A stretch of 10,950 nt of DNA from NCBI GenBank assembly GCA_020626475.1, contig JAHKZT010000019.1, positions 1 to 10,950 on the forward strand, read 5' to 3'. The notes under the pieces are model-generated. The model had not been told where the DNA came from, made no database searches, and was given only the letters and a program-made list of their open reading frames with translations. The DNA comes from a bacterium. Lineage in GTDB: Bacteria; Patescibacteriota; Saccharimonadia; Saccharimonadales; Saccharimonadaceae. Positions 1 to 10,950 of this stretch are shown here, one piece after another. The number at the start of each line of letters is the position of its first letter. Position 1 is the stretch's first letter. The translations under genes and the position numbers were made by a program.

Positions 1-203
1 TCAAGAAAATCGCCTTCGCGCGCCCATGGCATCTCTTCGTCTTTGACGCCGCTAGGCATGCCATTGTAGCCGGTAGCGACAATTTTGTGATCATCGTTGA
101 CGATGCAGGCGCCAACTTGAGTATTAGGGTCTTTGCTGCGTTGCGCTGACAGCAGTGCGAGACCCATAAAATATTCATCCCACCTGATGTAATCTTCGCG
201 CAT
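1..203 (-). CDS. dCMP (deoxycytidylate) deaminase, N-terminal part
   Basis: The visible 67 codons read [20 protein letters not shown] at the N-terminus, then [15 protein letters not shown], then GYNGMPSG. This is the start of the zinc-dependent dCMP/cytidine deaminase family (ComEB type), which converts dCMP to dUMP in the cytoplasm for dTTP synthesis. The zinc-binding HAE and PCxxC motifs would lie beyond the left edge and cannot be checked. The ATG start is supported by an AGGGAG Shine-Dalgarno about 6 bases upstream and by an extended -10 promoter at 230-238. The gene appears to be monocistronic at this end. The family call is firm. Activity is not verifiable because the catalytic half is outside the window. 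Confidence 0.88.
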
Positions 204-229
204 GTTAACACTCCCTATTTATTAGAGAT

Positions 230-238
230 AGTATAGCA
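230..238 (-). promoter_or_regulatory. Extended -10 promoter of the dCMP deaminase gene
   Basis: On the minus strand this reads TGCTATACT (TGn plus hexamer TATACT). The predicted transcript start is about 20 bases before the ATG. The -35 position falls inside the preceding terminator hairpin and has no consensus hexamer, so recognition would rest on the extended -10. The upstream gene's terminator U-run ends only a few bases away. Confidence 0.6.
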
Positions 239-240
239 TT

Positions 241-274
241 AAAAAGCCGCCTCCGGCTGGAAAATGGAGGCGGC
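241..274 (-). terminator. Rho-independent terminator after the 119-aa gene
   Basis: Perfect 9-bp arms GCCGCCTCC (246-254) and GGAGGCGGC (266-274) enclose an 11-base loop. On the minus strand the hairpin is followed by TTTTT (241-245). This fits termination of the minus-strand gene at 328-687 before the deaminase promoter. A smaller hairpin-like CCCC/GGGG element lies at about 290-302. Confidence 0.85.
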
Positions 275-327
275 GATAGTGAAAGGAGGACCCCTTGTGG
301 GGCCAGTATATGGGATAATGGATAGAG

Positions 328-687
328 CTAGAATTTTGCGTATAAGACGCCATCTTTGAGCCAGACTGAGGCGGGAGTATATGAATAATCTTCGCCATCG
401 GCGTCGCCTTCATCGTTATTAGCGGCGTGAGCTCTGAGAGCATCGTTATATGACTTAAGTCTGAAGTCGAGTTCATCCTGAATGTCAGTGCAAACTTTCT
501 TAATATCATCTTCGTCTTCTGGGAAGTCGAAGTTCAAATCTTTGAGCCTAAAGGTGTAGGCCTGCGCTTCGTCGTCAAAAGCGACGGAGCCGTTGTTGAC
601 TGAATCGAATATCTTTTCTTCGAGATCGCAGATGTTGCTTTCGTAATCTGTGTCATTGCCTGCTGGCTTTAGTAATATCTTGTCCAT
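328..687 (-). CDS. Small acidic protein of unknown function (119 aa)
   Basis: This gene is not recognised. The product is strongly acidic: Asp/Glu-rich patches lie at residues 56-63 (PEDEDD) and 92-101 (DEGDADGED). It has no membrane segment or signal peptide and only two cysteines, so it is probably a soluble cytoplasmic protein. It ends in a hydrophobic stretch, SVWLKDGVLYAKF. Reality of the gene is supported by an AAAGGAAGG Shine-Dalgarno about 10 bases before the ATG, a consensus promoter at 755-783 and a strong terminator at 241-274. It is a single-gene transcription unit, divergent from xth. The promoter is the best match to consensus in the window, which suggests high expression. No function is proposed. 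Confidence 0.82.
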   Translation of the reverse strand: MDKILLKPAGNDTDYESNICDLEEKIFDSVNNGSVAFDDEAQAYTFRLKDLNFDFPEDEDDIKKVCTDIQDELDFRLKSYNDALRAHAANNDEGDADGEDYSYTPASVWLKDGVLYAKF

Positions 688-705
688 AAGCTATTACCTT
701 CCTTT

Positions 706-754
706 CTAAGAATAAAAGATCTTGCCGCGGCCGTATGCGTGCGACGATTCTTAG
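706..754. repeat. 8-bp inverted repeat flanking the start of the 119-aa gene's leader
   Basis: CTAAGAAT (706-713) and ATTCTTAG (747-754) are perfect inverted copies 33 bases apart. The right arm directly abuts the -10 box of the minus-strand promoter and covers its predicted start site (about 748). The left arm sits just upstream of the Shine-Dalgarno. The transcript would contain only part of the right arm, so a DNA operator is more plausible than an RNA stem. Chance cannot be excluded. Confidence 0.35.
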
Positions 755-783
755 ATTATATAATATCTAATATAAAATGTCAA
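755..783 (-). promoter_or_regulatory. Consensus sigma70-type promoter of the 119-aa gene
   Basis: On the minus strand TTGACA (778-783) and TATAAT (755-760) are separated by exactly 17 bases, a perfect match to the housekeeping consensus. The predicted start is near 748, giving a leader of about 60 nt. The -10 region lies in an AT-rich near-palindrome with arms TTAGAT/ATCTAA. Confidence 0.85.
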
Positions 784-788
784 TAAAA

Positions 789-797
789 TGATAAAAT
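789..797 (+). promoter_or_regulatory. Extended -10 promoter of xth, predicted leaderless
   Basis: TGATAAAAT matches TGnTAnAAT. Placing the last T at -7 puts +1 on base 804, the A of the xth ATG. The 20 bases before that ATG are only A, T and one G, with no Shine-Dalgarno, which fits a leaderless mRNA. Confidence 0.55.
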
Positions 798-803
798 AAA
801 AAT

Positions 804-1595
804 ATGAAGATTTTTTCTTGGAATGTGAATGGTTTGCGGGCAGTTCTCGGCAAGGGTGCTTTGCAGGCGTTCATAGAGAAATATCAGCCAGATATATTGT
901 GCCTACAAGAGACAAAGGCTAAGCAGGGACAGGCAGAGGTGGACTTGCCGGAATATGAAGAGATTTGGAATTCGGCCGAGCGGGCGGGTTATTCTGGTAC
1001 GGCGATTTTTACAAAGCAGAAGCCGCTGAGTGTGCGCTATGGCTTTAATGATTCACAAAATGCCTTCGCAGGCTGGGAAGATGCTTTTGGGGATGCGCGC
1101 ACGGAAGGCCGTGTTTTGACGGCGGAATTTGAGGATTTCTATCTAATTGACGTGTATGTTCCAAACGAAAAAGACGATTTGGGGCGAATGACTTATCGTG
1201 AATCGGTTTGGGACAAAGCTTTGCTTGAGTATATGAAGCAGTTGGATGTCTTGAAACCTGTAATTGTTTGCGGTGATTTTAATGTGGCGCATGAAGAGAT
1301 TGATTTGGCGCGTCCGGCGCAGAATGAAGGGCATGCCGGCTTTACAAAGTCTGGCCGACAGGGAATGACGAACTTTTTGAGCAATGGCTTTATTGATACT
1401 TGGCGCGAGTTGCATCCTGATGAGCAAAAATATAGTTGGTGGTCGTATCGTGGCGGTGCAAGACAGCGCAATGTTGGTTGGAGGATCGATTATTTTCTAG
1501 CGAGCGATAGACTGCGTGGACAGATTAAAAATGCGGAAATTTGTAATGAAGTAATGGGCTCGGATCATTGCCCGATAATGCTGGAGTTAGCATGA
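804..1595 (+). CDS. xth: Exodeoxyribonuclease III / AP endonuclease
   Basis: The 263-aa product has the usual length and all motifs of the ExoIII/ExoA branch of the endonuclease/exonuclease/phosphatase family. These are WNVNGLRA (residues 6-13), LQETK with the metal ligand Glu36, DVYVPN with Tyr118, the catalytic GDFNVAH (157-163; Asp158, Asn160), WRIDYFLAS with Asp229, and GSDHCPI with the catalytic His255. It cleaves DNA 5' to abasic sites and removes 3' blocking groups in base excision repair. The start has no Shine-Dalgarno and is probably leaderless. Its TGA stop overlaps the start of the next gene (ATGA), so the two form an operon. Confidence 0.95.
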   Translation: MKIFSWNVNGLRAVLGKGALQAFIEKYQPDILCLQETKAKQGQAEVDLPEYEEIWNSAERAGYSGTAIFTKQKPLSVRYGFNDSQNAFAGWEDAFGDARTEGRVLTAEFEDFYLIDVYVPNEKDDLGRMTYRESVWDKALLEYMKQLDVLKPVIVCGDFNVAHEEIDLARPAQNEGHAGFTKSGRQGMTNFLSNGFIDTWRELHPDEQKYSWWSYRGGARQRNVGWRIDYFLASDRLRGQIKNAEICNEVMGSDHCPIMLELA

Positions 1596-2392
1596 GTGAG
1601 AACTTAGATTATTGGCACCGTCAGAGTACAAAAAAGTTATTCAGTGACATTGATATGATGGCGCCAGAGCAGAGGCGCTTTGCGGGGAAGTTGCTTATCA
1701 TAGGCGGCAATAAGGGAATGTTTTTTGCAGTAGCGAGTGCGCTAGAGGCGGCGAAGCGTTTTGGCGTTGGAGAGGTGCGTGCTTTGATGCCGGATGCGCT
1801 TAAAAATCAGGTGCCGAGCACGCCGGAGTTGTATTTTGCAGAGGCGGAGGCATCTGGGGCCTTTGGCAGGTTAGCTTTACAGGATATGCTTCGTCAGGCA
1901 GAGTGGGCTGATGCGGTGATTTTGATTGGCGATAGCGGCAAAAATGCGGAGACTTCGCTAGTATTTGCAGAGTTTATGAACAAGTGTCAAAAACCGGTGT
2001 TTATTACGCGCGATGCAGTGGAGACCGTGACACCGTCGGCGGCGGATTGGTCGATGCGCGAGTATGAAACGGGTTTATTGTTGACCTTGCCGCAACTCCA
2101 GAAATTACTTCGAACAATGTATTACCCAAAGGTAATTACGCTTTCGATGCCAACAAACCAATTAATTGAGACTCTGCACAAGTTCACCTTGAGCTATCCG
2201 GTGACAATTGCGACTTATCATAACGATCTGGTCGTAGTGGCGCAGAATGGCGAGGTAGTTACGCAGGCGATAAGCGAGACGAATTTGACTCCGATTTCTC
2301 TTTGGAGCGGAGCGCTATTGGTGCAGTCGGTGGTGGCGCGCCTATGGAATCCAGAAAAAGATTTCTATAAAGTTTTTTCGAGCTCACTTTGA
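1592..2392 (+). CDS. Degenerate NAD(P)HX dehydratase-like (NnrD/ribokinase-fold) protein
   Basis: This 266-aa protein resembles the ADP/ATP-dependent NAD(P)H-hydrate dehydratase (NnrD/YjeF C-terminal) family. It has an N-terminal GKLLIIGGNKGM glycine-rich segment (32-43), an alternating alpha/beta pattern, WADAVILIGDSG (105-116) where NnrD has its nucleotide-fold strand, and KPVFITRDA (134-142) where NnrD has the DADAL strand. The family's GTGD anion-hole and catalytic Asp motif near the C-terminus is replaced by LWSGAL (237-242), so dehydratase or kinase activity is doubtful. ATG at 1592 is preferred over the in-frame TTG at 1568, because it overlaps the xth stop as ATGA and has GGAG about 6 bases upstream, implying coupled translation. 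The family assignment is from pattern recognition and is moderately sure. The function is unknown. Confidence 0.72.
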   Translation: MSENLDYWHRQSTKKLFSDIDMMAPEQRRFAGKLLIIGGNKGMFFAVASALEAAKRFGVGEVRALMPDALKNQVPSTPELYFAEAEASGAFGRLALQDMLRQAEWADAVILIGDSGKNAETSLVFAEFMNKCQKPVFITRDAVETVTPSAADWSMREYETGLLLTLPQLQKLLRTMYYPKVITLSMPTNQLIETLHKFTLSYPVTIATYHNDLVVVAQNGEVVTQAISETNLTPISLWSGALLVQSVVARLWNPEKDFYKVFSSSL

Positions 2393-2402
2393 GAGGAGCA
2401 AG

Positions 2403-2431
2403 AAAAAAGGAGCCGTTAGTAGTACGGCCCC
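2403..2431 (-). terminator. Rho-independent terminator overlapping the stop codon
   Basis: On the minus strand the 8-bp arms GGGGCCGT (2424-2431) and ACGGCTCC (2409-2416), with one G-U pair, enclose a 7-base loop and are followed by TTTTTT (2403-2408). The TAA stop of the phosphatidyltransferase-like gene (2416-2418) lies in the loop and 3' arm. The plus direction has an A-C mismatch and no T-run, so it serves only the minus-strand gene. Confidence 0.82.
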
Positions 2432-3477
2432 TCAAAAGTAGAGTTTTCGATGTCTCTTGTGTCAGCGATAATGCTGATTGCGCTGCAGACGATAACAACA
2501 AGTGTACTGAGTGCGGTGTAGCCTGCCATCATGTTGTCGTTGGTATAAGCAGTGTATAAGCTAAGCATTATCCAACAGTAGACGATTATGCGTCTGATGA
2601 GATTAATATGGTAGCTGCGTAAGGAGACATAATTAAGGCGCCAGCGCCCAGCTATATGCCAAATAGCTACAATAATATCTCTGATGATTGCAATAGCCAC
2701 GAGTAGCGCGACTGCGGTCGAAGCCTTAAGATTGTTTAGGCGTAGATCGGTTTTTGACAGCGCGATTGTGACTGCGATCATGTGTCCGATAACGAAGAAT
2801 TTTTGTGAGAATACTTCGAGCCAGCCATAAAATCTAGTCATTCGCTGATGTTCACGCCAAATATATCCATTTACGGCATCCATGATTAGGATGCAGCATA
2901 AGGGGATAATGGCGCCGATATAGTAGCTGCAGGCTCCGAAACATCTGGTTGCGATAATATGGATATTGATCGCGATTAGAATGTTGCAGACGATTGCGCT
3001 GTGGCCTAAGTAGCCGATTCGATTATCGTTATCTGATAACCAGATTGGATTGCGCTTGTGTAGTACGAATGCCAGGGTACGCAGGGCTTCGTAGACTGAT
3101 ACGGCTAATACTATGTACCACGCAATGAACTGGATTACATCGAAGACGATGTGTCCTCTCGTGAAATGGCGCATAATTATTGAGACGAAGGCGACTGCGT
3201 AGGCAGCGGTTTTGATGGCGACTCCTATGCGATAACACAGGTCTTTTTGCGGGCACCACTGGTGTGCGTCGCGATGGAATGGTATTTGGAACCAGACGCC
3301 ACACAAGATAAAGCGGGCGAGATTTGAAATGCCGATAATCGCGAGCAGCCAGACTATTCCGGGCGGTTTAGCTAAAACGCCAAAGATGATTGCGCAGAAA
3401 TAACACAATGCATCGGCGATTTCGGTTACGCCCGAACGCTTAGCGATACTCCTTACGGAGTCTACAAAAAGTTTCAT
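2416..3477 (-). CDS. Catalytically degenerate CDP-alcohol phosphatidyltransferase paralogue
   Basis: This 353-aa polytopic membrane protein aligns nearly end to end with its upstream neighbour (352 aa). In the CDP-alcohol phosphotransferase signature the neighbour has four Asp at 200, 203, 221 and 225. This copy keeps Asp200 but has Asn203, Glu221 and Gln225, plus Trp207 for Ala and Tyr217 for Gly. The entry motif IPN...R is also gone. Loss of metal-binding and catalytic residues predicts a pseudoenzyme. The reading frame is intact and has its own promoter (3539-3567), AGGAG Shine-Dalgarno and terminator, so it is not a decaying pseudogene. The N-terminal half shares the motif PFHxxAHxxxPxKDxC (66-81) with the paralogue. 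ATG at 3477 was chosen for its Shine-Dalgarno. The frame is open further upstream without one. A partner or regulatory role is inferred. Confidence 0.85.
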   Translation of the reverse strand: MKLFVDSVRSIAKRSGVTEIADALCYFCAIIFGVLAKPPGIVWLLAIIGISNLARFILCGVWFQIPFHRDAHQWCPQKDLCYRIGVAIKTAAYAVAFVSIIMRHFTRGHIVFDVIQFIAWYIVLAVSVYEALRTLAFVLHKRNPIWLSDNDNRIGYLGHSAIVCNILIAINIHIIATRCFGACSYYIGAIIPLCCILIMDAVNGYIWREHQRMTRFYGWLEVFSQKFFVIGHMIAVTIALSKTDLRLNNLKASTAVALLVAIAIIRDIIVAIWHIAGRWRLNYVSLRSYHINLIRRIIVYCWIMLSLYTAYTNDNMMAGYTALSTLVVIVCSAISIIADTRDIENSTFEGPYY

Positions 3478-3538
3478 AAGACATACTTCTCCTTTCAAGG
3501 TACGATGGGACTTTGAGATAAAAGCTCCAATGCTGTAT

Positions 3539-3567
3539 ATTTTATCACAAAGTACGTAAAAAGTCAA
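3539..3567 (-). promoter_or_regulatory. Promoter of the degenerate phosphatidyltransferase paralogue
   Basis: On the minus strand TTGACT (3562-3567), a 17-base spacer ending in TGA, and TAAAAT (3539-3544) form a near-consensus promoter with an extended -10. The start is predicted near 3532, giving a leader of about 55 nt. The first leader bases (ACAGCATTGGAGCTTTTATC) resemble those of the paralogue's leader. Confidence 0.8.
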
Positions 3568-3584
3568 TAGAATAACAGGGGTAG

Positions 3585-3610
3585 AAAAAAGGCAATCCAG
3601 ATGGATTGCC
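3585..3610 (-). terminator. Rho-independent terminator of the intact phosphatidyltransferase gene
   Basis: GGCAATCC (3591-3598) and GGATTGCC (3603-3610) form a perfect 8-bp stem with a 4-base loop. On the minus strand it is followed by TTTTTT (3585-3590). It lies immediately after the TAA stop and just before the next gene's promoter, so the two paralogues are separate transcription units. Confidence 0.87.
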
Positions 3611-3611
3611 T

Positions 3612-4670
3612 TTAAGTTTTGAGCGCGGCCTGAAGCCTTTGATAATCAGCGTAGATGCTGATTACGCTAAAGAGTGCCGTGAATACAATCATGACGATAC
3701 TCAGTATAGTCATTTGCAACTTTACGGATGCATTCGGCACAGTTAATGAGAGTGTCATCGAAAGTAGCCAGGCGCAGATGCAGCCCATGCGGACCTTATC
3801 GACGAGGCTTGCTCCGATGCCTTCCGGAATCTTGCGACCCCTGAGAAAGAACCATGCGAAGAAAAGTATATCGCGCGCGACGGTGATTGTGATGAAAATT
3901 GAAGTAATAATCATCGTACGTCTACTTCCCGTAATAATGCTGCTTTGGTAGAGTAGCCAAATGAATGCGATTGCATTCGGGAGGAAGATGATTTTATCGC
4001 CGAGGGGGTCGAGGTACTTTCCGACTTTCGTTATGCTGTTGGTTGCGCGAGCAATAAACCCGTCGACAGCATCGGTTGCGATTGCGAGGATCATTATGAC
4101 GGTAGCGATTAAGTTGCTCTTGTTACCGAAGCATTGTGTCATATAGATATGAGGTATAATGATCGAGATTGCAATGCGAGTGATACTGATCCAGTTCGGT
4201 ATGCCGATATAGCCATTGGTGCCGCGGAGCCAATCTTCGCTATACTTGTGCATCGTAAGAAGCAAGCATCGGAAGGTCTCGACTACGGTCGTAATGACGA
4301 TTAGATACCAAAAGATGCAGCGTGCGCCGGCGAGTTTTTTCGTGAGGTCATCAAAGAAAAACTCTGGCAATTTGATGATTGCTAGGATGACAAGCGAAAT
4401 AAGTTTGATGCCAACTACGATTAGCGTGCAGTCATCCTTGTTGGGGTTGTGGCAGTGTGCCGTTTTGTGAAACGGGGCATGATACCAAGCTCCCCTGATA
4501 AAAAAGCGGAAGATATCTGCCGCGATGATTATCGCGATAAAATACCAAGCGCCTTTTGTTCCGACCATTGAGTAGAATACGATTGCGCTAACATCACAGA
4601 AGATATCGGCAAGATCTGACTCTTTGGTCCGCTTTAATGCGCTAAGCGCATAACGTCCAATTTGTTGCAT
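3612..4670 (-). CDS. CDP-alcohol phosphatidyltransferase (PgsA-like) with extra N-terminal membrane domain
   Basis: The 352-aa polytopic membrane protein carries the full family signature at residues 200-225: DAVDGFIAR, eight residues, G217, KYL, Asp221, PLG, Asp225. It is preceded by the typical entry segment IPNWISITRI (157-166). The family moves a phospho-alcohol from a CDP-lipid (usually CDP-diacylglycerol) to an alcohol at the inner membrane face. The DPLGDK string is closest to phosphatidylglycerophosphate synthase, but the acceptor cannot be read from sequence. PgsA is usually near 180-200 aa. Here about 150 extra N-terminal residues hold membrane segments (roughly 29-58, 83-101, 118-140) and a motif PFHxxAHxxxPxKDxC (66-81) shared with the downstream paralogue. 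ATG at 4670 has AGGAG 10 bases upstream. The in-frame GTG at 4679 sits too close to it. Confidence 0.88.
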   Translation of the reverse strand: MQQIGRYALSALKRTKESDLADIFCDVSAIVFYSMVGTKGAWYFIAIIIAADIFRFFIRGAWYHAPFHKTAHCHNPNKDDCTLIVVGIKLISLVILAIIKLPEFFFDDLTKKLAGARCIFWYLIVITTVVETFRCLLLTMHKYSEDWLRGTNGYIGIPNWISITRIAISIIIPHIYMTQCFGNKSNLIATVIMILAIATDAVDGFIARATNSITKVGKYLDPLGDKIIFLPNAIAFIWLLYQSSIITGSRRTMIITSIFITITVARDILFFAWFFLRGRKIPEGIGASLVDKVRMGCICAWLLSMTLSLTVPNASVKLQMTILSIVMIVFTALFSVISIYADYQRLQAALKT

Positions 4671-4772
4671 GTTTACCACGCTCCTTTTTAAAGTGCGATA
4701 AGGGAAAATCTGGATTGCCTTTCAGATAAAATCCCCACCTGTAGGTTACCAGGGCAACAAAAAGCGCCCATT
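4671..4772 (-). promoter_or_regulatory. Structured 5' leader of the phosphatidyltransferase mRNA
   Basis: The predicted transcript starts near 4772, giving a leader of about 100 nt. Three small stems can be drawn: GGGC/GCCC (4766-4769 with 4752-4755), CCUG/CAGG (4750-4753 with 4738-4741) and AUCUG/CAGAU (4723-4727 with 4708-4712). The first two share two bases and are mutually exclusive. A block TTTTATCTnAAAG recurs in the paralogue's leader. It matches no riboswitch class I recognise. Regulation is possible but unproven. Confidence 0.35.
4688..4771 (-). CDS. Possible 27-codon upstream ORF (leader peptide)
   Basis: An ATG falls one base after the predicted transcription start and opens a frame of 27 codons beginning MGAFCCPGNL. 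It ends in TAA at 4688-4690, directly before the AGGAG Shine-Dalgarno of the phosphatidyltransferase gene. It would be translated as a leaderless ORF, as proposed for xth and the sortase. The peptide resembles no known protein. At the corresponding place the paralogue's leader has ATT instead of ATG followed by the same Gly-Ala-Phe codons, so the open frame there has no start. Real translation is speculative. Confidence 0.3.
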   Translation of the reverse strand: MGAFCCPGNLQVGILSERQSRFSLIAL

Positions 4773-4778
4773 ACTGTT

Positions 4779-4807
4779 ATTTTAGCATAAAAAGTGTTTT
4801 TCGTCAA
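4779..4807 (-). promoter_or_regulatory. Promoter of the intact phosphatidyltransferase gene
   Basis: On the minus strand TTGACG (4802-4807), 17 bases ending in TGC, and TAAAAT (4779-4784) form a near-consensus promoter with an extended -10. The string TTTATGCTAAAAT matches the promoters near 9450-9480. Its -35 box lies next to the divergent asnB -10 box, so the two promoters crowd each other. Confidence 0.8.
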
Positions 4808-4811
4808 GATG

Positions 4812-4820
4812 TGGTAGAAT
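4812..4820 (+). promoter_or_regulatory. Extended -10 promoter of asnB
   Basis: TGGTAGAAT matches TGnTAnAAT. The start is predicted near 4827, leaving a 20-nt leader with GGAGG (4835-4839) seven bases before the ATG. No convincing -35 hexamer is present. The expected place overlaps the divergent promoter's -35 and spacer. Confidence 0.6.
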
Positions 4821-4846
4821 AGAGAAAAAGCTTTGGAGGATTTTTT

Positions 4847-7492
4847 ATGTGCGGAATTGCAGGATGTTTCGCCTATGATAATACGAAAGAAATATTAGCA
4901 AAAATGAGCGATGCGATGACGCATCGTGGCCCTGATGGCTCTGGTGAGACGAGCTATTCAGATAAGGGTGTAAAAATAGGTTTAGCGCATCGCCGCCTGG
5001 CGATTATTGACCGTGCTGCCGGCAAACAACCGATGAAATCCGTAAATAATCCTGATTACGAGATTGTTTATAATGGTGAGGTTTATAACTATGTCGAGCT
5101 TCGCGAGGAGCTTCTTGCGGCAAATCCAAAGCTAAAGTTTAAGACAAATTCTGATACTGAGGTTGTGCTCGAGGCTTTCATCCAATGGGGCGACAAGGCA
5201 TTTGATAAGTTTAATGGCATGTTTGGTCTTGCCATTTTGAACCGCGCAAAAGGCGAAGTAACGCTTGCGCGCGATCATTTCGGCATTAAGCCGGTTTACT
5301 ATTACGAGAAGGATGGCGGCGTTATATTTGCGTCAGAAATCAAGACGATGCTTGCTTCCGGTGTGGTAGAAACGGCGCCAAACGATAAGATCGTTTATCG
5401 CTATCTTAAATTCCGTGTTCAGGATGATACGAACGAAACCTTCTTTGAGAATATTTATCGCTTGATGCCAGGTGAAATGATGACGATTAGTAAGAAGGGT
5501 ACGAAGCGCAAGATGTACACGAAGCTTCGCGAAGAGCTAATCGAGCTCGCAAAGAATCCGAAAGAGTACAGTGAAGAAGCGGCGAAGGAATACGGTGAGC
5601 GCTTGGATAAAGCGGTGCGTATGCGCTTGGTCGGTGAAGTGCCAGTTGGCACGTCGCTATCTGGCGGCCTCGATTCGTCTTCGGTAGCAGCACTTATCGC
5701 AAAGAATCTTGAGGCGGATGCAAAAGATAAGGATTTGGAGTCTGTTGGTACGCGTCAGAATACTTTCTCGGCAGTATTCCCGAATTTGAGCAATGACGAG
5801 GAAGTTTACGTTGATGCATTGATTAATAAGTATCCAAACAAGATAAAATCGCATAAGATTAAGCCAACGCCAAAGACTTTCCTAGAGGATTTGCAGGATT
5901 TTGTGCGTACGCAGGAAGAGCCAATTATTAGCACTGGTCCATATGCGCAATATGCCGTGATGCGTGAGGCTTCGAAGTATGTGACGGTTTTGCTTGACGG
6001 ACAGGGTGCAGACGAGATGATGGCTGGCTATAATCCGTATTACTACGTCTATCTCAATCAGCTTAAGACGCGTAAACAGTATAAGTTGCTTGCGGCTGAA
6101 ACGACGAAATCTGGCGATATCGTAAAGAAGATCTTGCGTGGCAAACGCAACAAATTGAAATCGATTACAAATTTGATGCAGCCTGAGTTTGCCGAGAAAT
6201 ACGCCGACGAGAAGATGGTCGTAATCAACGATAATCTCAAGATGCGTTTGCTTGACGACATCTTTAAGCATAGCTTGCCATCGTTGCTTCGCTACGAAGA
6301 TCGCAATACAATGCGCTTTAGCCTTGAGGGGCGCGTGCCATTTATCGATAAAGAACTTTTGAAGTATCTCTTTAGTCTGAATGACGATGCAATTATTCAT
6401 GGCGGCTGGAATAAGAATATCTTGCGTGATTCGATGAAGGGCATTTTGCCTGAGAAGATTCGTGCACGTCGCAATAAAATTGGTTTCACGACGCCGGAGG
6501 GCGAATGGTTCAAGGAAATTCACAAAGACCTCGAGAAGATTCTCGCTTCTGATGAGTTCGCGCATCGCAAATACTTCAATCAGCTTGAGGTATTGCGCGA
6601 GTTTAAGCTCGACGAGAAGGGTAAGACGAATTATGGTTCGATGGCGTTTTGGCGTATTATTAACGTTGAATTGTGGCTCCGTGAGTTCTTCGATGAGAAG
6701 CCGGACGAAAACGCGCCAAAGCCAGAAGAGCTTGGCTATGGCCCGAATGATAAGAAAAATGCTGACATTAAGTCTGACGTAAATAACAAGGTTTATACGC
6801 GTTATATGCTTCGTACGGAGCTCGTAACGCCGCAAACGAAGCTTGACGACTATATTAATCGTTATGTTGAAGCATTCGCAAAGACGATGAATAAAGAGGT
6901 CGGTAAGCGCAAATGGCAACTATATATCAGCGAAAAGATTATCGCAACGATGCAAGGACGCTCGTACTTCCTATGGGATGTTGATGCGCGCTGGACGGCG
7001 AGAGTTTTGAGCCGCTTTGTACATCGTACACCGGCAGGCATTGGCCTCGGTAATCCGGCAACGATGGAGCTAGCTTTGCGTGAAGCTGGTACGCCTAGAA
7101 TTCTTCTCGCTACCGTAGCTAGTGCAGCAGGTAAGGCGGTTGGTAAACGCGGCGTATTTTATAACGTTGCTGGCGCAAATGTTCGCGCGATTGATGGCCC
7201 AACATCGTATTCGGCATATCCTGCTAATGTTTCGGCGAAATTGCCGCCAAAGGATCCAGATAATGTCGCAGAACATATTGCGGTTTTGATTCGCGAAAAT
7301 GAGAAAATTTCTAAGACACTTCGTGATAACTTTGAGGGTGTTGTCGTAATTGACTCGAATGATATCGGTCGCAACGTGCTCGGCAAATCTTGTACGGATG
7401 AGGATGCGCTTCTCGCGTCGAAGTTTGCGGATAATCCATTTGGTCAAGCTCGCCAGCTAACACCAATGGCAATCGTGGTAGAGAACGACTAA
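4847..7492 (+). CDS. asnB: Asparagine synthetase (glutamine-hydrolysing) fused to a CofE-like gamma-glutamyl ligase domain
   Basis: This is a single 881-aa frame. Residues 1-615 are a complete AsnB. MCGIAGC gives the N-terminal nucleophile Cys2, followed by HRRLAIID (48-55), NGEVYNY (76-82), the ATP-pyrophosphatase loop SGGLDSS (272-278), DGQGADE (384-390) and the RYEDRN...EGRVPF block (482-499). It makes Asn from Asp, Gln and ATP, releasing Glu. After a charged linker (about 617-648), residues 649-881 resemble the F420-0:L-glutamate ligase family (CofE; also seen in proteins annotated as folate gamma-glutamate ligase). The matching segments are LYISEKIIATMQGR (692-705), KRGVFYNVAGANVRAIDGPT (767-786), KDPDNVAEHIAVLIRE (802-817) and VVVIDSNDIGR (832-842). 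AsnB is usually 500-650 aa, so the extra domain is real. Start: GGAGG seven bases upstream. AsnB part very sure; C-terminal family fairly sure; its substrate unknown. Confidence 0.92.
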   Translation: MCGIAGCFAYDNTKEILAKMSDAMTHRGPDGSGETSYSDKGVKIGLAHRRLAIIDRAAGKQPMKSVNNPDYEIVYNGEVYNYVELREELLAANPKLKFKTNSDTEVVLEAFIQWGDKAFDKFNGMFGLAILNRAKGEVTLARDHFGIKPVYYYEKDGGVIFASEIKTMLASGVVETAPNDKIVYRYLKFRVQDDTNETFFENIYRLMPGEMMTISKKGTKRKMYTKLREELIELAKNPKEYSEEAAKEYGERLDKAVRMRLVGEVPVGTSLSGGLDSSSVAALIAKNLEADAKDKDLESVGTRQNTFSAVFPNLSNDEEVYVDALINKYPNKIKSHKIKPTPKTFLEDLQDFVRTQEEPIISTGPYAQYAVMREASKYVTVLLDGQGADEMMAGYNPYYYVYLNQLKTRKQYKLLAAETTKSGDIVKKILRGKRNKLKSITNLMQPEFAEKYADEKMVVINDNLKMRLLDDIFKHSLPSLLRYEDRNTMRFSLEGRVPFIDKELLKYLFSLNDDAIIHGGWNKNILRDSMKGILPEKIRARRNKIGFTTPEGEWFKEIHKDLEKILASDEFAHRKYFNQLEVLREFKLDEKGKTNYGSMAFWRIINVELWLREFFDEKPDENAPKPEELGYGPNDKKNADIKSDVNNKVYTRYMLRTELVTPQTKLDDYINRYVEAFAKTMNKEVGKRKWQLYISEKIIATMQGRSYFLWDVDARWTARVLSRFVHRTPAGIGLGNPATMELALREAGTPRILLATVASAAGKAVGKRGVFYNVAGANVRAIDGPTSYSAYPANVSAKLPPKDPDNVAEHIAVLIRENEKISKTLRDNFEGVVVIDSNDIGRNVLGKSCTDEDALLASKFADNPFGQARQLTPMAIVVEND

Positions 7493-7494
7493 TA

Positions 7495-7523
7495 AAAAAT
7501 CCCCTCCATAAGAGGGGATTTTT
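7495..7523. terminator. Bidirectional rho-independent terminator
   Basis: Perfect 12-bp arms AAAAATCCCCTC (7495-7506) and GAGGGGATTTTT (7512-7523) enclose a 5-base loop. The A and T runs at the two ends make it work in both directions. It serves asnB from the left and the zinc-ribbon gene from the right. Confidence 0.93.
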
Positions 7524-7533
7524 GTTTGAACAA

Positions 7534-8088
7534 TTATTTTTTAGCTTGCCATTCGATGGCGGTACGGCAAGCTTTACAGGTGCCGACGGTACCCTTAATA
7601 GCATTTGCTTTGCCGCAATTTGGGCATTTGACGACGTGTGGCGTAGACTGGTCGGATGGGTCGACTTGCGTGTTGTCCTTTTGCATGATTGGAGTTTTGC
7701 GGACATCACTGCCGCTTGTGGTGCGGTTGGCGCCAGAACCGGCCGTATGAGCCATTCTAAGGGCCTGCGAGACGAGATTGGCGACTTTTCCTAGTGCGAT
7801 GCTAGCTATAATCATGATAACGCTAAAAATCGCTGTCCAGCGGCCGTAGTCGGTTAGTTTGCCGTAGAGTGGATGCGCGCGGAAGTCGATGAATGGCTGA
7901 AAAGCTGGAATTGAATCGCCGAAGTTTTGCTGGAGTAGCTCATAACCGCGTGGAGCTAGGCAGAGAAGTGCTATTACGAGAATAAGGGCTGGAACGCGAT
8001 AATAGCGATAGCTGCCATAGATAAAGAGGCGCGCGATGGTTAGCGCTACACCAAGGGGCGGCACGAAATATAGAGTAACTAGCAGCAC
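7534..8088 (-). CDS. Membrane protein with C-terminal zinc ribbon
   Basis: From the GTG at 8088 the product is 184 aa. Hydrophobic segments lie near residues 1-23, 32-47 and 85-108. A polar linker follows, and then a four-cysteine zinc ribbon, CPNC at 155-158 and CKAC at 171-174 (CxxC, 12 residues, CxxC). The ribbon should be cytoplasmic. The family is not one I can name. The start is uncertain: GTG has no Shine-Dalgarno and would begin inside the first membrane helix. The frame stays open upstream to a stop at 8161-8163, adding up to 24 plausible residues (SIQNFSFRLPSIPKIICSLP) but with no ATG, GTG or TTG. It lies 77 bases after the sortase stop on the same strand, probably in one operon, and ends at the shared bidirectional terminator. 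Confidence 0.72.
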   Translation of the reverse strand: MLLVTLYFVPPLGVALTIARLFIYGSYRYYRVPALILVIALLCLAPRGYELLQQNFGDSIPAFQPFIDFRAHPLYGKLTDYGRWTAIFSVIMIIASIALGKVANLVSQALRMAHTAGSGANRTTSGSDVRKTPIMQKDNTQVDPSDQSTPHVVKCPNCGKANAIKGTVGTCKACRTAIEWQAKK

Positions 8089-8165
8089 GGGCAGGCTGCA
8101 GATTATTTTAGGGATTGACGGTAGACGAAAAGAAAAGTTTTGAATACTTATAAGCTTATTTTATC

Positions 8166-9440
8166 CTATTCTTGACCGGTAAGCCATTTCCAGAATTGCT
8201 CGAATGGAGAATCATCGTTCTTCGGCATAGTCTGGTCATCGTTATCGTCGTTATCTTCAACTGGCTCCTCGATGTCTGATGAGCCGTCGTAACTTGGATG
8301 AATTTGTTCGCCGTAGACGAGTAGGCGGTATTTCGAGGTGCCAAGGGGTGTACAGGTAATGAGGGTAATCATCGGTTTGCCTGGGTTATTGCTTGCGATT
8401 TCGCGAAGCGACTTGGAATTTGAGGGCTCTACGGTGCGCGTGCCGGTGACGCGGTAGGTATAACGCTGATTTTCGTAGTCCATATAGATGAGATCGCCGG
8501 TACCCATGCGGGTTAGGCCGGAGAAGATGAACTTATAATCAGATTGCTGATAGATGTTGCCGGCAGAGTGCCCAGAGATTGCGAAGTTGCCGACTTCGCC
8601 TGGCTTTGCGGAGGCGCCAGGAATTGAGAAGTGGGCGACGCCATTGGACATCGCGTTTGCCATTGAGCTTAGGTCGTTCTTTGAACCGAAGACGACTGGT
8701 ACTTCAACGTTTAATTTTGGAATCATGAGAGTCGGTTTATCGTGAACGCTGGCAGAGACGGTCGGATCGATGGCAGTAATATCGTTAACCTCGGAACCGC
8801 CTGGAGACATATAAGCGACAGCATTAGCAATAATGACCTGGTTATACTGGAAGAGAAGGCCGAGTACGAGAATCGTAAAGCCGATTGTAAGTGGAATGAA
8901 ATGTCGACTCTTGCGCATCTTCTTGGCGCGTTTGGCGACTTTCTTTTGGATTTTTGATTTGAAATCGTTCTGGATTGCTTCGGACTCTTCGGCGCTTTGC
9001 GCTGGCGCAGGAGTGCTGGCAGCGGAGGAGATTGTAGTGCGCTCCTCGGCGGCTTTAGCTTCGCGCTCGGCTAGATCGCGTTCAATTTTTAGGCGTTCGC
9101 GTGCGACATATTCTTTGGCGGCGCGACCATAGTATTCGCCGTAGTATTTCTGGTAATAATCTTGCCACGCAGAATGATACTTCCGCCAATCCTCGGCTTT
9201 GACTTGAGGAGCGGGAGCTTGTTTGGTCGGTTCGCGATAATTCTGCGGCTGATGCTTGTAGGCTTCTAGGACTTTTTGGCGAGCGAGCGCAGCGGCAGTC
9301 TGCTGCTGTTTTTGAGCAGCGGATGGTTCTGTTGATTTTTGTTGCACAGCTGGACCATTGGCGGCATTTTGTGCCGCAGCTTGCCCCCAAGCATTCCAAC
9401 TAGGAGGAGTACTAGATTGCCCACCTTTCTGATTATCCAT
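8166..9440 (-). CDS. Sortase with long cytoplasmic N-terminal region
   Basis: The product is 424 aa from ATG 9440. Residues 1-180 are polar and probably cytoplasmic: Gln/Ala/Pro-rich to about 80, then a tyrosine-rich patch YHSAWQDYYQKYY (88-100), then a charged probable coiled coil (about 105-134). A basic stretch leads to one membrane helix (about 181-208). The outer domain is a sortase, with catalytic His291 in ISGHSAG, catalytic Cys363 in TLITCTP and catalytic Arg372 in KYRLLVYGE. Sortases cut a C-terminal sorting signal and join the protein to an acceptor at the cell surface. The tail is acidic (about 389-410) and ends WKWLTGQE. Most sortases are 200-300 aa, so the N-terminal region is an addition. 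An in-frame ATG at 9458 overlaps the -10 box and is rejected. No substrate with an LPXTG-like signal is seen here. Confidence 0.9.
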   Translation of the reverse strand: MDNQKGGQSSTPPSWNAWGQAAAQNAANGPAVQQKSTEPSAAQKQQQTAAALARQKVLEAYKHQPQNYREPTKQAPAPQVKAEDWRKYHSAWQDYYQKYYGEYYGRAAKEYVARERLKIERDLAEREAKAAEERTTISSAASTPAPAQSAEESEAIQNDFKSKIQKKVAKRAKKMRKSRHFIPLTIGFTILVLGLLFQYNQVIIANAVAYMSPGGSEVNDITAIDPTVSASVHDKPTLMIPKLNVEVPVVFGSKNDLSSMANAMSNGVAHFSIPGASAKPGEVGNFAISGHSAGNIYQQSDYKFIFSGLTRMGTGDLIYMDYENQRYTYRVTGTRTVEPSNSKSLREIASNNPGKPMITLITCTPLGTSKYRLLVYGEQIHPSYDGSSDIEEPVEDNDDNDDQTMPKNDDSPFEQFWKWLTGQE

Positions 9441-9448
9441 TACTTCAT

Positions 9449-9457
9449 ATTCTAGCA
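9449..9457 (-). promoter_or_regulatory. Extended -10 promoter of the sortase gene, predicted leaderless
   Basis: On the minus strand TGCTAGAAT matches TGnTAnAAT. With the last T at -7, +1 falls at 9442, two bases before the ATG at 9440, so there is no room for a Shine-Dalgarno. It is the second probable leaderless gene in the window. Confidence 0.6.
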
Positions 9458-9477
9458 TAAAGGCTATTTTTATGCTA
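9453..9477. repeat. 9-bp inverted repeat between divergent sortase and tRNA promoters
   Basis: TAGCATAAA (9453-9461) and TTTATGCTA (9469-9477) are perfect inverted copies separated by 7 bases. Each arm carries the upstream part of an extended -10 box, TGCTAGAAT leftward and TGCTAAACT rightward. The symmetry may therefore reflect two divergent promoters, or it may be an operator controlling both. Confidence 0.55.
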
Positions 9478-9500
9478 AACTAATATTGTTCTTTTAGAAT
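9473..9500 (+). promoter_or_regulatory. Promoter region of tRNA-Leu
   Basis: There are two candidate -10 boxes: the extended TGCTAAACT (9473-9481), placing the start near 9488, and TAGAAT (9495-9500), only two bases before the mature tRNA. The first leaves a short 5' leader for RNase P removal and is preferred. Neither has a clear -35. Confidence 0.4.
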
Positions 9501-9502
9501 CT

Positions 9503-9589
9503 GGGCGAGTGGTGGAATTGGTAGACACGCTAGACTCAAAATCTTGTGGCAGCAATGCCGTGAGGGTTCAAGTCCCTCCTCGCCCACCA
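9503..9589 (+). tRNA. tRNA-Leu (anticodon CAA)
   Basis: The 87-nt class II tRNA decodes UUG. The acceptor stem GGGCGAG (9503-9509) pairs perfectly with CTCGCCC (9579-9585), followed by discriminator A and an encoded CCA (9587-9589). The anticodon loop CTCAAAA (9535-9541) holds CAA at 9537-9539. The long variable arm has a GGCA/TGCC stem. The T-arm GAGGG/CCCTC encloses TTCAAGT (9567-9573). The anticodon stem CTAGA/TCTTG has one T-T mismatch (9531 with 9545). Confidence 0.96.
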
Positions 9590-9602
9590 AGCTTCGAATA
9601 GA

Positions 9603-9625
9603 ATCGCCTATCTCGGCGATTTTTT
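9603..9625 (+). terminator. Rho-independent terminator after tRNA-Leu
   Basis: ATCGCC (9603-9608) and GGCGAT (9615-9620) form a 6-bp stem with a 6-base loop followed by TTTTT (9621-9625). In the opposite direction no T-run follows, so it does not obviously serve the PEGA gene converging from the right. Confidence 0.82.
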
Positions 9626-9651
9626 GTTCGAAATTTGGTGAATGATTCCAA

Positions 9652-10950
9652 TTATAGGGATTTGCGTTTGAGGGTGTATTTGATTTTTGTTTCGGTGGTT
9701 GAGACTGGATCGGAGTCGGATGGGGTATCTTTGTCGGCGTCAGTAGAGGTCTCTTCTTCGACGATGTCAAAATGGTATAACCAGCGGTTATTCTCGCTGA
9801 TGATGACAGGGAATGGATTGTCGACATTTGATATGACCTTGCGGCGATTAGCGCCATCGAAATCGCGAACAATAATTGCATTGTCGACATTCTGCCAAAG
9901 AAGATAGTCATCGATCCAATTAATATTTGTGAGTTGAGCAGAGATTTCCGTATCGAAATAATCTTTTGTTTCCATGTCGTAGCTTGTGATATATTTGTCG
10001 CCAGAGAATACGACGACGCGCTGGTTGGCGTTGACGGAAAGTAGCTGCGGAGAATAATCTAGGTCGCGCTCGAGCTTCAATTTGAGTTTCGAAACTTCAT
10101 TTTTGCCATAGGATGGATATTTGCCGTTAAGAATATAAATCTTTTTATCGATGCTGTATGCTAGCCAATCCTCGTTCCAGTAGGATCCCATAGCGAGCTT
10201 GATGATTGTTTTGTCGTCAGTATTATCTAGCTTAGCAATAGTTGTCGCACCTTTTTCGCCTTCTTTATAGATGCTTAGTTGGCGAACATCATTCTCGACG
10301 TTTACGAAGGCGATGATGTCTCGATTGTGAGCGATTTTCTCGATATTGTTAGCAAAAGATCCAGAGATAGTGAGATTGTTTGTGTCGATGAGGCGGATAT
10401 TGCCGCTTTCGAGAGCCCAGAGCTTGCTAGCTGACTCATTCTCGATTAGAATGCTGTCAAAGTTGAGATTGAAATACTTAGTTAAATTAATGCTAGCGTC
10501 CGTGTGCTCGAGGTCGACGAGATGCCAGCTCGTTTTGTCGTTGAGGGTCCATTTTATAATAGCGCGCGAATTATTATCGTTCCATGCGACGACGGAAAGG
10601 TTGCCTTCGACGGCTTTGGCTGCGGTAGTGCTAAGACAGTCATTGAGATTTAGCTTATTGATTTTGAGTTTGTCGCCTTGGATGTCGACGAAGAATAGGG
10701 TATTGCTATCGGCTTCGGCGACGAGCATTTTTTTACGGTTGGACGAAAAAGTAGCGAGCCGTAAGTCTTCAAAGCTATGAACATCGGTGGTCTGAGATTT
10801 TTTAGGGAACAGACGAATCCAGTCGATGCGCGTAAGGAGGCCAGCGTCAATTTTCTGATCTTTATTCCAAGAATCGTAGCCAGGCTTTGTAATTTTGATT
10901 TGATGGGAACCGGAGCTGAGCATTTTGCTGAATTCTGTGTGGCCGAATTG
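9652..10950 (-). CDS. PEGA-domain / beta-propeller-like surface protein, N-terminus missing
   Basis: 432 residues are visible and the frame runs off the right edge. The first visible residues (GHTEFSKMLSSGSHQIKITKPGYDSW in two parts: GHTEFSKMLSSGS then HQIKITKPGYDSW) form the second half of a PEGA domain, a small beta-sandwich common in exported bacterial proteins. Next come about 330 residues of short strands with recurring patterns such as LATFSSNRKKMLVA, LSVVAWNDNNS and NINWIDDYLLWQ, typical of a WD40/TolB-like beta-propeller. The tail is Ser/Thr/Asp/Glu-rich and ends basic, YTLKRKSL. PEGA proteins of this type usually have an N-terminal membrane anchor, which would lie outside the window, so extracellular location is inferred. 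The ATG at 10923 is internal to the PEGA domain and not the start. No clear terminator follows the TAA at 9652. Confidence 0.75.
   Translation of the reverse strand, partial: QFGHTEFSKMLSSGSHQIKITKPGYDSWNKDQKIDAGLLTRIDWIRLFPKKSQTTDVHSFEDLRLATFSSNRKKMLVAEADSNTLFFVDIQGDKLKINKLNLNDCLSTTAAKAVEGNLSVVAWNDNNSRAIIKWTLNDKTSWHLVDLEHTDASINLTKYFNLNFDSILIENESASKLWALESGNIRLIDTNNLTISGSFANNIEKIAHNRDIIAFVNVENDVRQLSIYKEGEKGATTIAKLDNTDDKTIIKLAMGSYWNEDWLAYSIDKKIYILNGKYPSYGKNEVSKLKLKLERDLDYSPQLLSVNANQRVVVFSGDKYITSYDMETKDYFDTEISAQLTNINWIDDYLLWQNVDNAIIVRDFDGANRRKVISNVDNPFPVIISENNRWLYHFDIVEEETSTDADKDTPSDSDPVSTTETKIKYTLKRKSL

Follow-up and report, generated by a model that had tools for sequence, protein, structure and literature searches.

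The window analysed in this study comprises positions 1 to 10,950 of the forward strand of contig JAHKZT010000019.1 (assembly GCA_020626475.1), from a member of the Saccharimonadaceae (Patescibacteriota), bacteria of a tiny, host-dependent type. It carries two adjacent genes on the minus strand: an intact CDP-alcohol phosphatidyltransferase gene, hereafter a, and a second gene, hereafter d, which lies 134 bases after a and appears to be its degenerate paralogue. The features of the pair, with the evidence for each in brackets, are:

3612..4670, minus strand: gene a, open frame, PgsA-like CDP-alcohol phosphatidyltransferase, 352 amino acids, four signature Asp (Pfam, alignment, AlphaFold2 (AF2) model, structural match)
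4221..4670, minus strand: N-half of a, residues ~1-150, made up of four long helices (N-half hidden Markov model (HMM), AF2 helices)
3996..4073, minus strand: intact motif D200-x2-D203-G-x2-A-R-x8-G-x3-D221-x3-D225 in a (alignment)
2416..3477, minus strand: gene d, open frame, degenerate paralogue, 353 amino acids, predicted fold kept, no Pfam match (BLASTP, alignment, AF2)
3028..3477, minus strand: N-half of d, residues ~1-150, less relaxed than the C-half, with C59, H68 and C75-P-x-K-D79 (conservation)
2803..2880, minus strand: broken motif in d, with D200, N203, E221 and Q225 (alignment)
3588..3613, minus strand: terminator-like hairpin and U run directly after a (eye, folding, z -6.1)
2407..2433, minus strand: terminator-like consensus match after d (scan, not above chance overall)
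3539..3567, minus strand: promoter-like site upstream of d, 10/12 (not above regional chance)
4779..4807, minus strand: promoter-like site upstream of a, 10/12 (not above regional chance)

The catalytic signature of a and its breakdown in d

The two proteins align in register with 26% identity over 340 amino acids (BLASTP, E 2e-29), a likeness far beyond chance, which bears out the original prediction, made from the sequence alone, of adjacent 352- and 353-amino acid genes in register. Gene a matches PF01066 over residues 157-327 (E 2e-20; 74.1 bits, cut-off 22) and is the sole match to this family in its own genome (81.6% complete); d matches no Pfam family at E<=10.

The complete signature of the family is present in a (D200, D203, G204, A207, R208, G217, D221 and D225), and the four Asp, together with the rest of the signature, are invariant across a 29-row alignment of a-type proteins. 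At the four Asp positions the d protein of the window (genome G000) carries D-N-E-Q, and W207 and Y217 replace A207 and G217 of a; alignment confirmed all these substitutions as first read from the letters. Clear d proteins were found in three other genomes of the genus, with the motifs D-N-E-Q and a three-residue gap in G033, E-E-D-R in G029, and L-N-D-V in G025, the latter with a Glu one residue upstream of the first position, or two in another alignment where the first place is a gap. All four Asp are kept in the 29 other readable rows (28 of the genus and one short protein from another family); the motif alignment left out the short G058 protein, from another family, and had no readable row for G007. 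Displacement rather than loss of the acidic residues is nearly excluded by the alignment, the Glu of G025 being the sole ambiguity. The d protein cannot bind the two metals in the known way.

The AF2 model of a contains the six-helix catalytic fold, and d shares descent with a and has the six-helix fold, the models of both proteins showing four helices in the N-half in addition to the six-helix unit. The best structural match of both is the bacterial phosphatidylglycerol phosphate synthase PgsA, 7drj/7drk (VIA); a d profile had no match at E<=10 among PDB sequences. With PgsA the pair has in common the C-terminal six-helix unit and, in a, the signature motif. The solved chains, however, are 184-190 residues long, whereas a and d have an extra four-helix N-half, a scores below the PgsA equivalog cut-off of TIGR00560 (67.2 against 109.1 bits), and d lacks the motif.

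Both frames are intact, as had been predicted, but the good promoters and terminators attributed to them call for correction: the promoter scan gave 8 sites in the scanned region against 5.1 +/- 2.6 in shuffles, with no clear excess, and the terminator scan gave 1 match (after d) against 2.5 +/- 1.7, not above chance. The hairpin after a (-16.3 kcal/mol, z -6.1) was chosen by eye and is absent from the terminator scan list. Separate transcription of a and d is plausible from these signals.

Locus, origin and selective constraint of d

Among 45 genomes of the genus, 34 have some PF01066 match and 32 have the long form of a with such a match, in frames of 298-496 amino acids (partial in G062). 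A clear d protein occurs in four (G000, G033, G025 and G029), and in all four it adjoins a. In the 41 stretches of 40 genomes compared for synteny, the order at the locus is exonuclease III, a dehydratase-like gene, d where present, and a, often followed by an asparagine synthase, zinc-ribbon or sortase gene. The dehydratase-like neighbour is present in 27 of the 29 stretches with a; in 20 it stands directly beside a or with only d between them, and in the other seven one to three open reading frames (ORFs) intervene. The two stretches without it are those of G062, which stops at a contig end, and of G024, whose a and exonuclease genes are on separate contigs. Four further a genes (G005, G006, G011 and G015) lie outside this comparison. 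Gene a is essentially one orthologous gene at one locus. The exonuclease and the dehydratase are present without a or d in 10 stretches, and an eleventh (G011) is cut by a contig end.

In the compared stretches that carry exonuclease III, the dehydratase-like gene lies beside or near it. In the window it occupies 1592-2392 on the plus strand and matches NAD(P)H-hydrate dehydratase weakly (PF01256, E 0.0022; TIGR00196, E 1.3e-7; both below cut-off). G010, G036 and G031 have an unrelated gene of 317-318 amino acids, HAD-family phosphatase-like by eye, where d would stand between a and the dehydratase-like gene (L065:7266-8216, L075:8289-9242, L076:7083-8033).

Beyond the genus, a sample of 294 genomes of the order, drawn evenly over 143 genera, was screened with the a profile, which matched 82 genomes of 44 genera; 192 of the genomes without a match are not itemised. 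Six matches are near full-length, in open frames of 343-429 amino acids, and all six belong to this genus, including that of the window, which runs one codon beyond the stop. Matches in other genera cover the C-terminal unit, most in frames of ~170-300 amino acids, and four with a longer N-terminal reach (G206, G051, G087 and G091) cross stop codons. On these profile matches, the long form is a trait of this genus.

Eleven of the 45 genomes have no PF01066 match, near-complete ones included (G017, G020, G026, G030 and G064; 96-99%), and the genus appears to have given up this step of phospholipid synthesis more than once. CDP-diacylglycerol synthase (PF01148) was found in 10 of 13 genomes tested, all four d genomes included, and a can therefore have its substrate there; it was not found in G016, G017 and G012.

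A tree of 38 proteins groups the four d proteins in one clade (support 100/98) inside the a proteins of the same species clade (98/99). Their sister, on a very long branch (98/90), is a protein of G016 (88% complete), a genome whose locus holds only this degenerate relative of 401 amino acids and which has no PF01066 match anywhere. In a smaller protein set the d clade has support of 98/97, d with the G016 protein 94/98, and d alone, with the G016 protein left out, 100/100. In a species tree built from the exonuclease and dehydratase (39 rows), the four species with the pair fall within a clade of 13 that also holds G008, G032, G022 and G068 with a only, G065, G017, G028 and G064 with neither gene, and G016; the pair species are not monophyletic, and 2-3 changes are needed. 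The simplest reading of these trees would be one duplication early in the 13-species clade, followed by repeated loss of d.

A sequencing or frame artefact was rejected, an intact d being present in four genomes of different species. A mobile or phage origin was likewise rejected by comparisons with viruses, plasmids and phages: no relatives of d were found in viral contigs or, by tblastn, in plasmids, and the a-d pair had no near DNA match in phages.

Codon models gave an omega of 0.114 for d and 0.048 for a. Fixing omega at 1 for d costs ~107 log units (best of three kappa values), and twenty alignments simulated on the d tree at omega 1 gave 0.85-1.17. By half, omega is 0.047 (N) and 0.108 (C) in d and 0.076 (N) and 0.023 (C) in a, all rough values, since synonymous sites are saturated and the N-half omegas disagree with protein rates. 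Simple estimators of nonsynonymous (dN) and synonymous (dS) divergence also had saturated dS for d, with dN between G000 and G033 of 0.48 for d and 0.22 for a. Of the signs that were to refute the original prediction, neither frameshifts nor relaxation to neutrality was seen in d: the frames are intact in four genomes and omega is non-neutral.

The protein data are safer than the codon omegas. The protein tree of d is longer than that of a by a factor of 1.9 in the N-half and 3.2 in the C-half, and mean identity is lower in d than in a by 0.14 (0.06-0.22) and 0.34 (0.28-0.41), respectively. Of the columns that do not vary among four a proteins, 13 of 44 in the N-half and 8 of 92 in the C-half are likewise identical across the four d proteins (Fisher p 0.004, columns taken as independent). 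By these contrasts in rate, identity and columns, most of the constraint that once acted on the catalytic unit of d is gone, and much less of that on the N-half. With four intact syntenic copies, each with a broken motif, in one clade and with omega well below 1, the view of d as a catalytically dead, maintained paralogue is supported, in line with the pseudoenzyme first proposed; the heteromer or regulatory subunit suggested along with it stays putative.

Residues invariant in d and not found in a are C59, C75, Y82, Y93, W219, K242, N248, H274 and G277-R278. Around d residues 59-80 (window 3238-3303), C59, H68 and C75-P-x-K-D79 are common to the four d proteins; of these residues, H68, P76 and D79 do not vary in the four adjacent a proteins either, and this N-half loop is possibly a metal or ligand loop shared by a and d. 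An aromatic tail (GPYY, GPY, YYYY, GPY) closes each of the four d proteins and is missing from the four neighbouring a proteins; it is encoded at window 2419-2436 and, in L059, L060 and L061, at the end of the d gene.

The N-terminal half and the possible role of d

In both a and d, a complete unit seems to be fused to a truncated one, a point that the original prediction missed. Two PF01066 matches lie in a single frame in G012 and in G002, whose exonucleases (63% and 49% identity) make them the most distant members of the genus; in both, this frame occupies the same locus, next to the dehydratase-like gene. By eye, both units of both proteins have four Asp, with a stretch from A-R to Gly of 9 and 14 residues, not 8, in the first unit. 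An HMM of the N-halves of 31 a proteins, built without these two, was searched against 1240 ORFs and found its training proteins in the set, the four d proteins (E 7e-18 to 3e-9), the G016 protein (1.7e-8) and residues 78-191 of G012 (E 5.6e-9; next unrelated ORF 0.34), i.e. part of the first unit after its last motif Asp. Comparison of the N-halves with the first units of G012 and G002 by hhalign gave a probability of 95% (E 1.8e-8). Mainly on account of the G012 match, the synteny and the helix count, the N-half would be best explained as a first unit that lost transmembrane helices (TM) 1-2 and the motif and was reduced to TM3-6, an origin well supported, though through few sequences.

It is rather unlikely that the N-half is instead an unrelated four-helix domain and the two-unit proteins of G012 and G002 separate fusions at the same locus. 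Such a view would fit a Pfam scan of 33 N-halves in which PF01066 was found in only two, the first units of G012 and G002, the others having scattered weak matches to other families. It would also fit the low hhalign probabilities of the N-halves against the C-halves of the same proteins (0.09%) and those of G012 and G002 (0.39%), and of the d N-halves against the two first units (2.5%), as well as the failure of the N-half HMM to find G002 among the 1240 ORFs and the weak reverse HMM of G012 and G002, whose one good match to another N-half was that of G025 (E 3.3e-4) and which hit an unrelated ORF at 0.0037. Against it stand the match to G012 of the 31-sequence profile, built without the two proteins, and the hhalign result, the common locus, and the four helices expected for TM3-6.

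A comparable architecture has been described in eukaryotes. In the structural accounts of CEPT1 (PMC10156783) and CHPT1 (PMC10182977), the catalytic TM1-6 precede TM7-10, a set of helices akin to TM3-6 that makes up the dimer interface, and the authors propose that these eukaryotic phosphatidylcholine synthases descend from a dimeric or duplicated ancestor, one unit of which lost TM1-2 and its activity. PMC10182977 describes the internal repeat as invisible in the CHPT1 sequence, places TM7-10 in eukaryotic members only, and names a two-unit bacterial protein, B3T1S3. As in CEPT1 and CHPT1, a and d join a complete six-helix unit to a four-helix half (AF2 helices). This half may likewise derive from TM3-6 of a second unit, as the profile match to G012 and the synteny would indicate and the direct comparison of N-halves with C-halves would not. 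They differ in that the extra half is N-terminal, not C-terminal, and in that the host is a bacterium, where some syntenic orthologues still have two PF01066 units. The proteins of G012 and G002 share the two-unit kind of B3T1S3; in a and d of the window, the first unit seems to have shed TM1-2 and its motif. Gene a thus looks like a bacterial, order-reversed counterpart of the CEPT1 architecture; we infer convergence from the genus-limited distribution. CEPT1 and CHPT1 chains were not among the structural matches listed, which says little given the reversed order of the halves.

Pseudoenzyme partners of active paralogues are a general concept, and the pair resembles them in having a dead paralogue kept by selection beside an active one, the partnership here being putative. 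Part of a literature search, limited to open-licence papers, returned no pseudoenzyme partner in the CDP-alcohol phosphatidyltransferase family, a weak absence.

The dead motif, the predicted fold, the single origin, the purifying selection and the adjacency to a are established by computation. The best explanation overall, which we hold tentatively, is that d is a non-catalytic partner of a that arose by tandem duplication and acts via its N-half. Gene a would take CDP-diacylglycerol and an alcohol acceptor, most likely glycerol-3-phosphate, and release cytidine monophosphate, with its active site in the C-terminal six-helix unit; its N-half would be a dead second unit reduced to TM3-6, the helices that the partner protomer supplies in bacterial relatives. 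The bacterial enzymes, in the structural descriptions of PMC8633023 and PMC6506517, dimerise across TM3 and TM4, and both chains line the pocket. A single tandem duplication of a in the ancestor of the 13-species clade would have produced d, whose remaining catalytic unit would then have lost the metal-binding Asp, selection keeping a folded membrane protein. In the membrane, d may associate with a through the N-half, as CEPT1 protomers do via their dead half, and may tune the assembly, stability or substrate access of a.

Several observations weigh against this partnership. Most relatives that keep a lack d, so a has no general need of it. Absence from close relatives, named at the outset as a refuting sign, holds in part: d is seen in four genomes and not in 41 of the 45, including G016, with its degenerate gene only, and G062, not judgeable because its contig breaks off within a towards the expected place of d; within the 13-species clade, four species have a alone and four have neither gene. 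If the G016 protein is a d orthologue, as the trees favour, d can exist without a. A terminator-like hairpin sits between a and d; neither model had a Foldseek match in the PDB at E<=0.001; and a, below the TIGR00560 cut-off, is therefore named PgsA-like, its acceptor uncertain. Mutations at the CEPT1 dimer interface, in the activity data of PMC10156783, left activity unchanged, which speaks against control via that interface. The basis for d is four sequences from incomplete genomes, the omegas are rough, and the excess of N-half over C-half identity within d (0.07, bootstrap 0.00 to 0.145) is of borderline significance.

Nearly as likely is a private function of d, as a maintained non-enzyme that might, for instance, bind or move a lipid or CDP-alcohol, or act in sensing, without contact with a; adjacency would then only reflect the origin by tandem duplication. 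The invariant residues of d not common to a, its possible own transcription unit and the degenerate protein of G016, present without a, would suit such a function. The residues common with a are, however, enriched in the N-half, as expected for a kept common partner or interface, and d stands beside a in all four genomes where it is clear.

Neither decay nor retained catalysis is favoured. That d is a functionless, slowly decaying duplicate appears improbable: its evolutionary rate is ~1.9 (N-half) to 3.2 (C-half) times that of a, and 8 of the 13 species in its clade lack it, but the four frames are full-length and without stops at 26-47% mutual identity, with 46 invariant columns, and the observed omega lies far below the neutral simulations. 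Least probable is that d remains a transferase with altered metal ligands or other chemistry, for which one could cite that K226, D267 and R295 (R294 in a), which lie within the motif and pocket helices or next to them, are invariant in the four d proteins and that G000 and G033 retain one Asp and a Glu; the substitutions differ among the d proteins, with Leu, Val and Arg at metal positions and no common replacement site, and an active d with a fixed alternative ligand set was rejected on this ground.

Surrounding genes and significance for the family

On the plus strand, the window codes for an asparagine synthase of 881 amino acids (4847-7492; PF00733, TIGR01536) with a C-terminal extension of ~240 amino acids (residues 640-881), which weakly matches F420-0:gamma-glutamyl ligase (PF01996, E 0.002, below cut-off). 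An 881-amino acid homologue (92%) lies beside a in G025. A tRNA-Leu with anticodon CAA is found at 9503-9589 on the plus strand.

Taken jointly, these observations may trace, at one locus of one genus, a path from a two-unit synthase, through reduction of the first unit to a dead dimerisation half, to a duplicate serving as a dedicated dead subunit of the active enzyme; the enzyme with the reduced first unit would be an independent, order-reversed counterpart of human CEPT1. We regard this joint path, including the CEPT1 parallel, as possible and as more doubtful than the partner role of d itself. The syntenic two-unit form, the reduced form and the wholly dead duplicate seem to be present in one bacterial lineage, in which a path of the CEPT1/CHPT1 type thus becomes testable. 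If d does regulate a, it would represent pseudoenzyme control of bacterial phospholipid synthesis, in a genus where some close relatives show no such enzyme.
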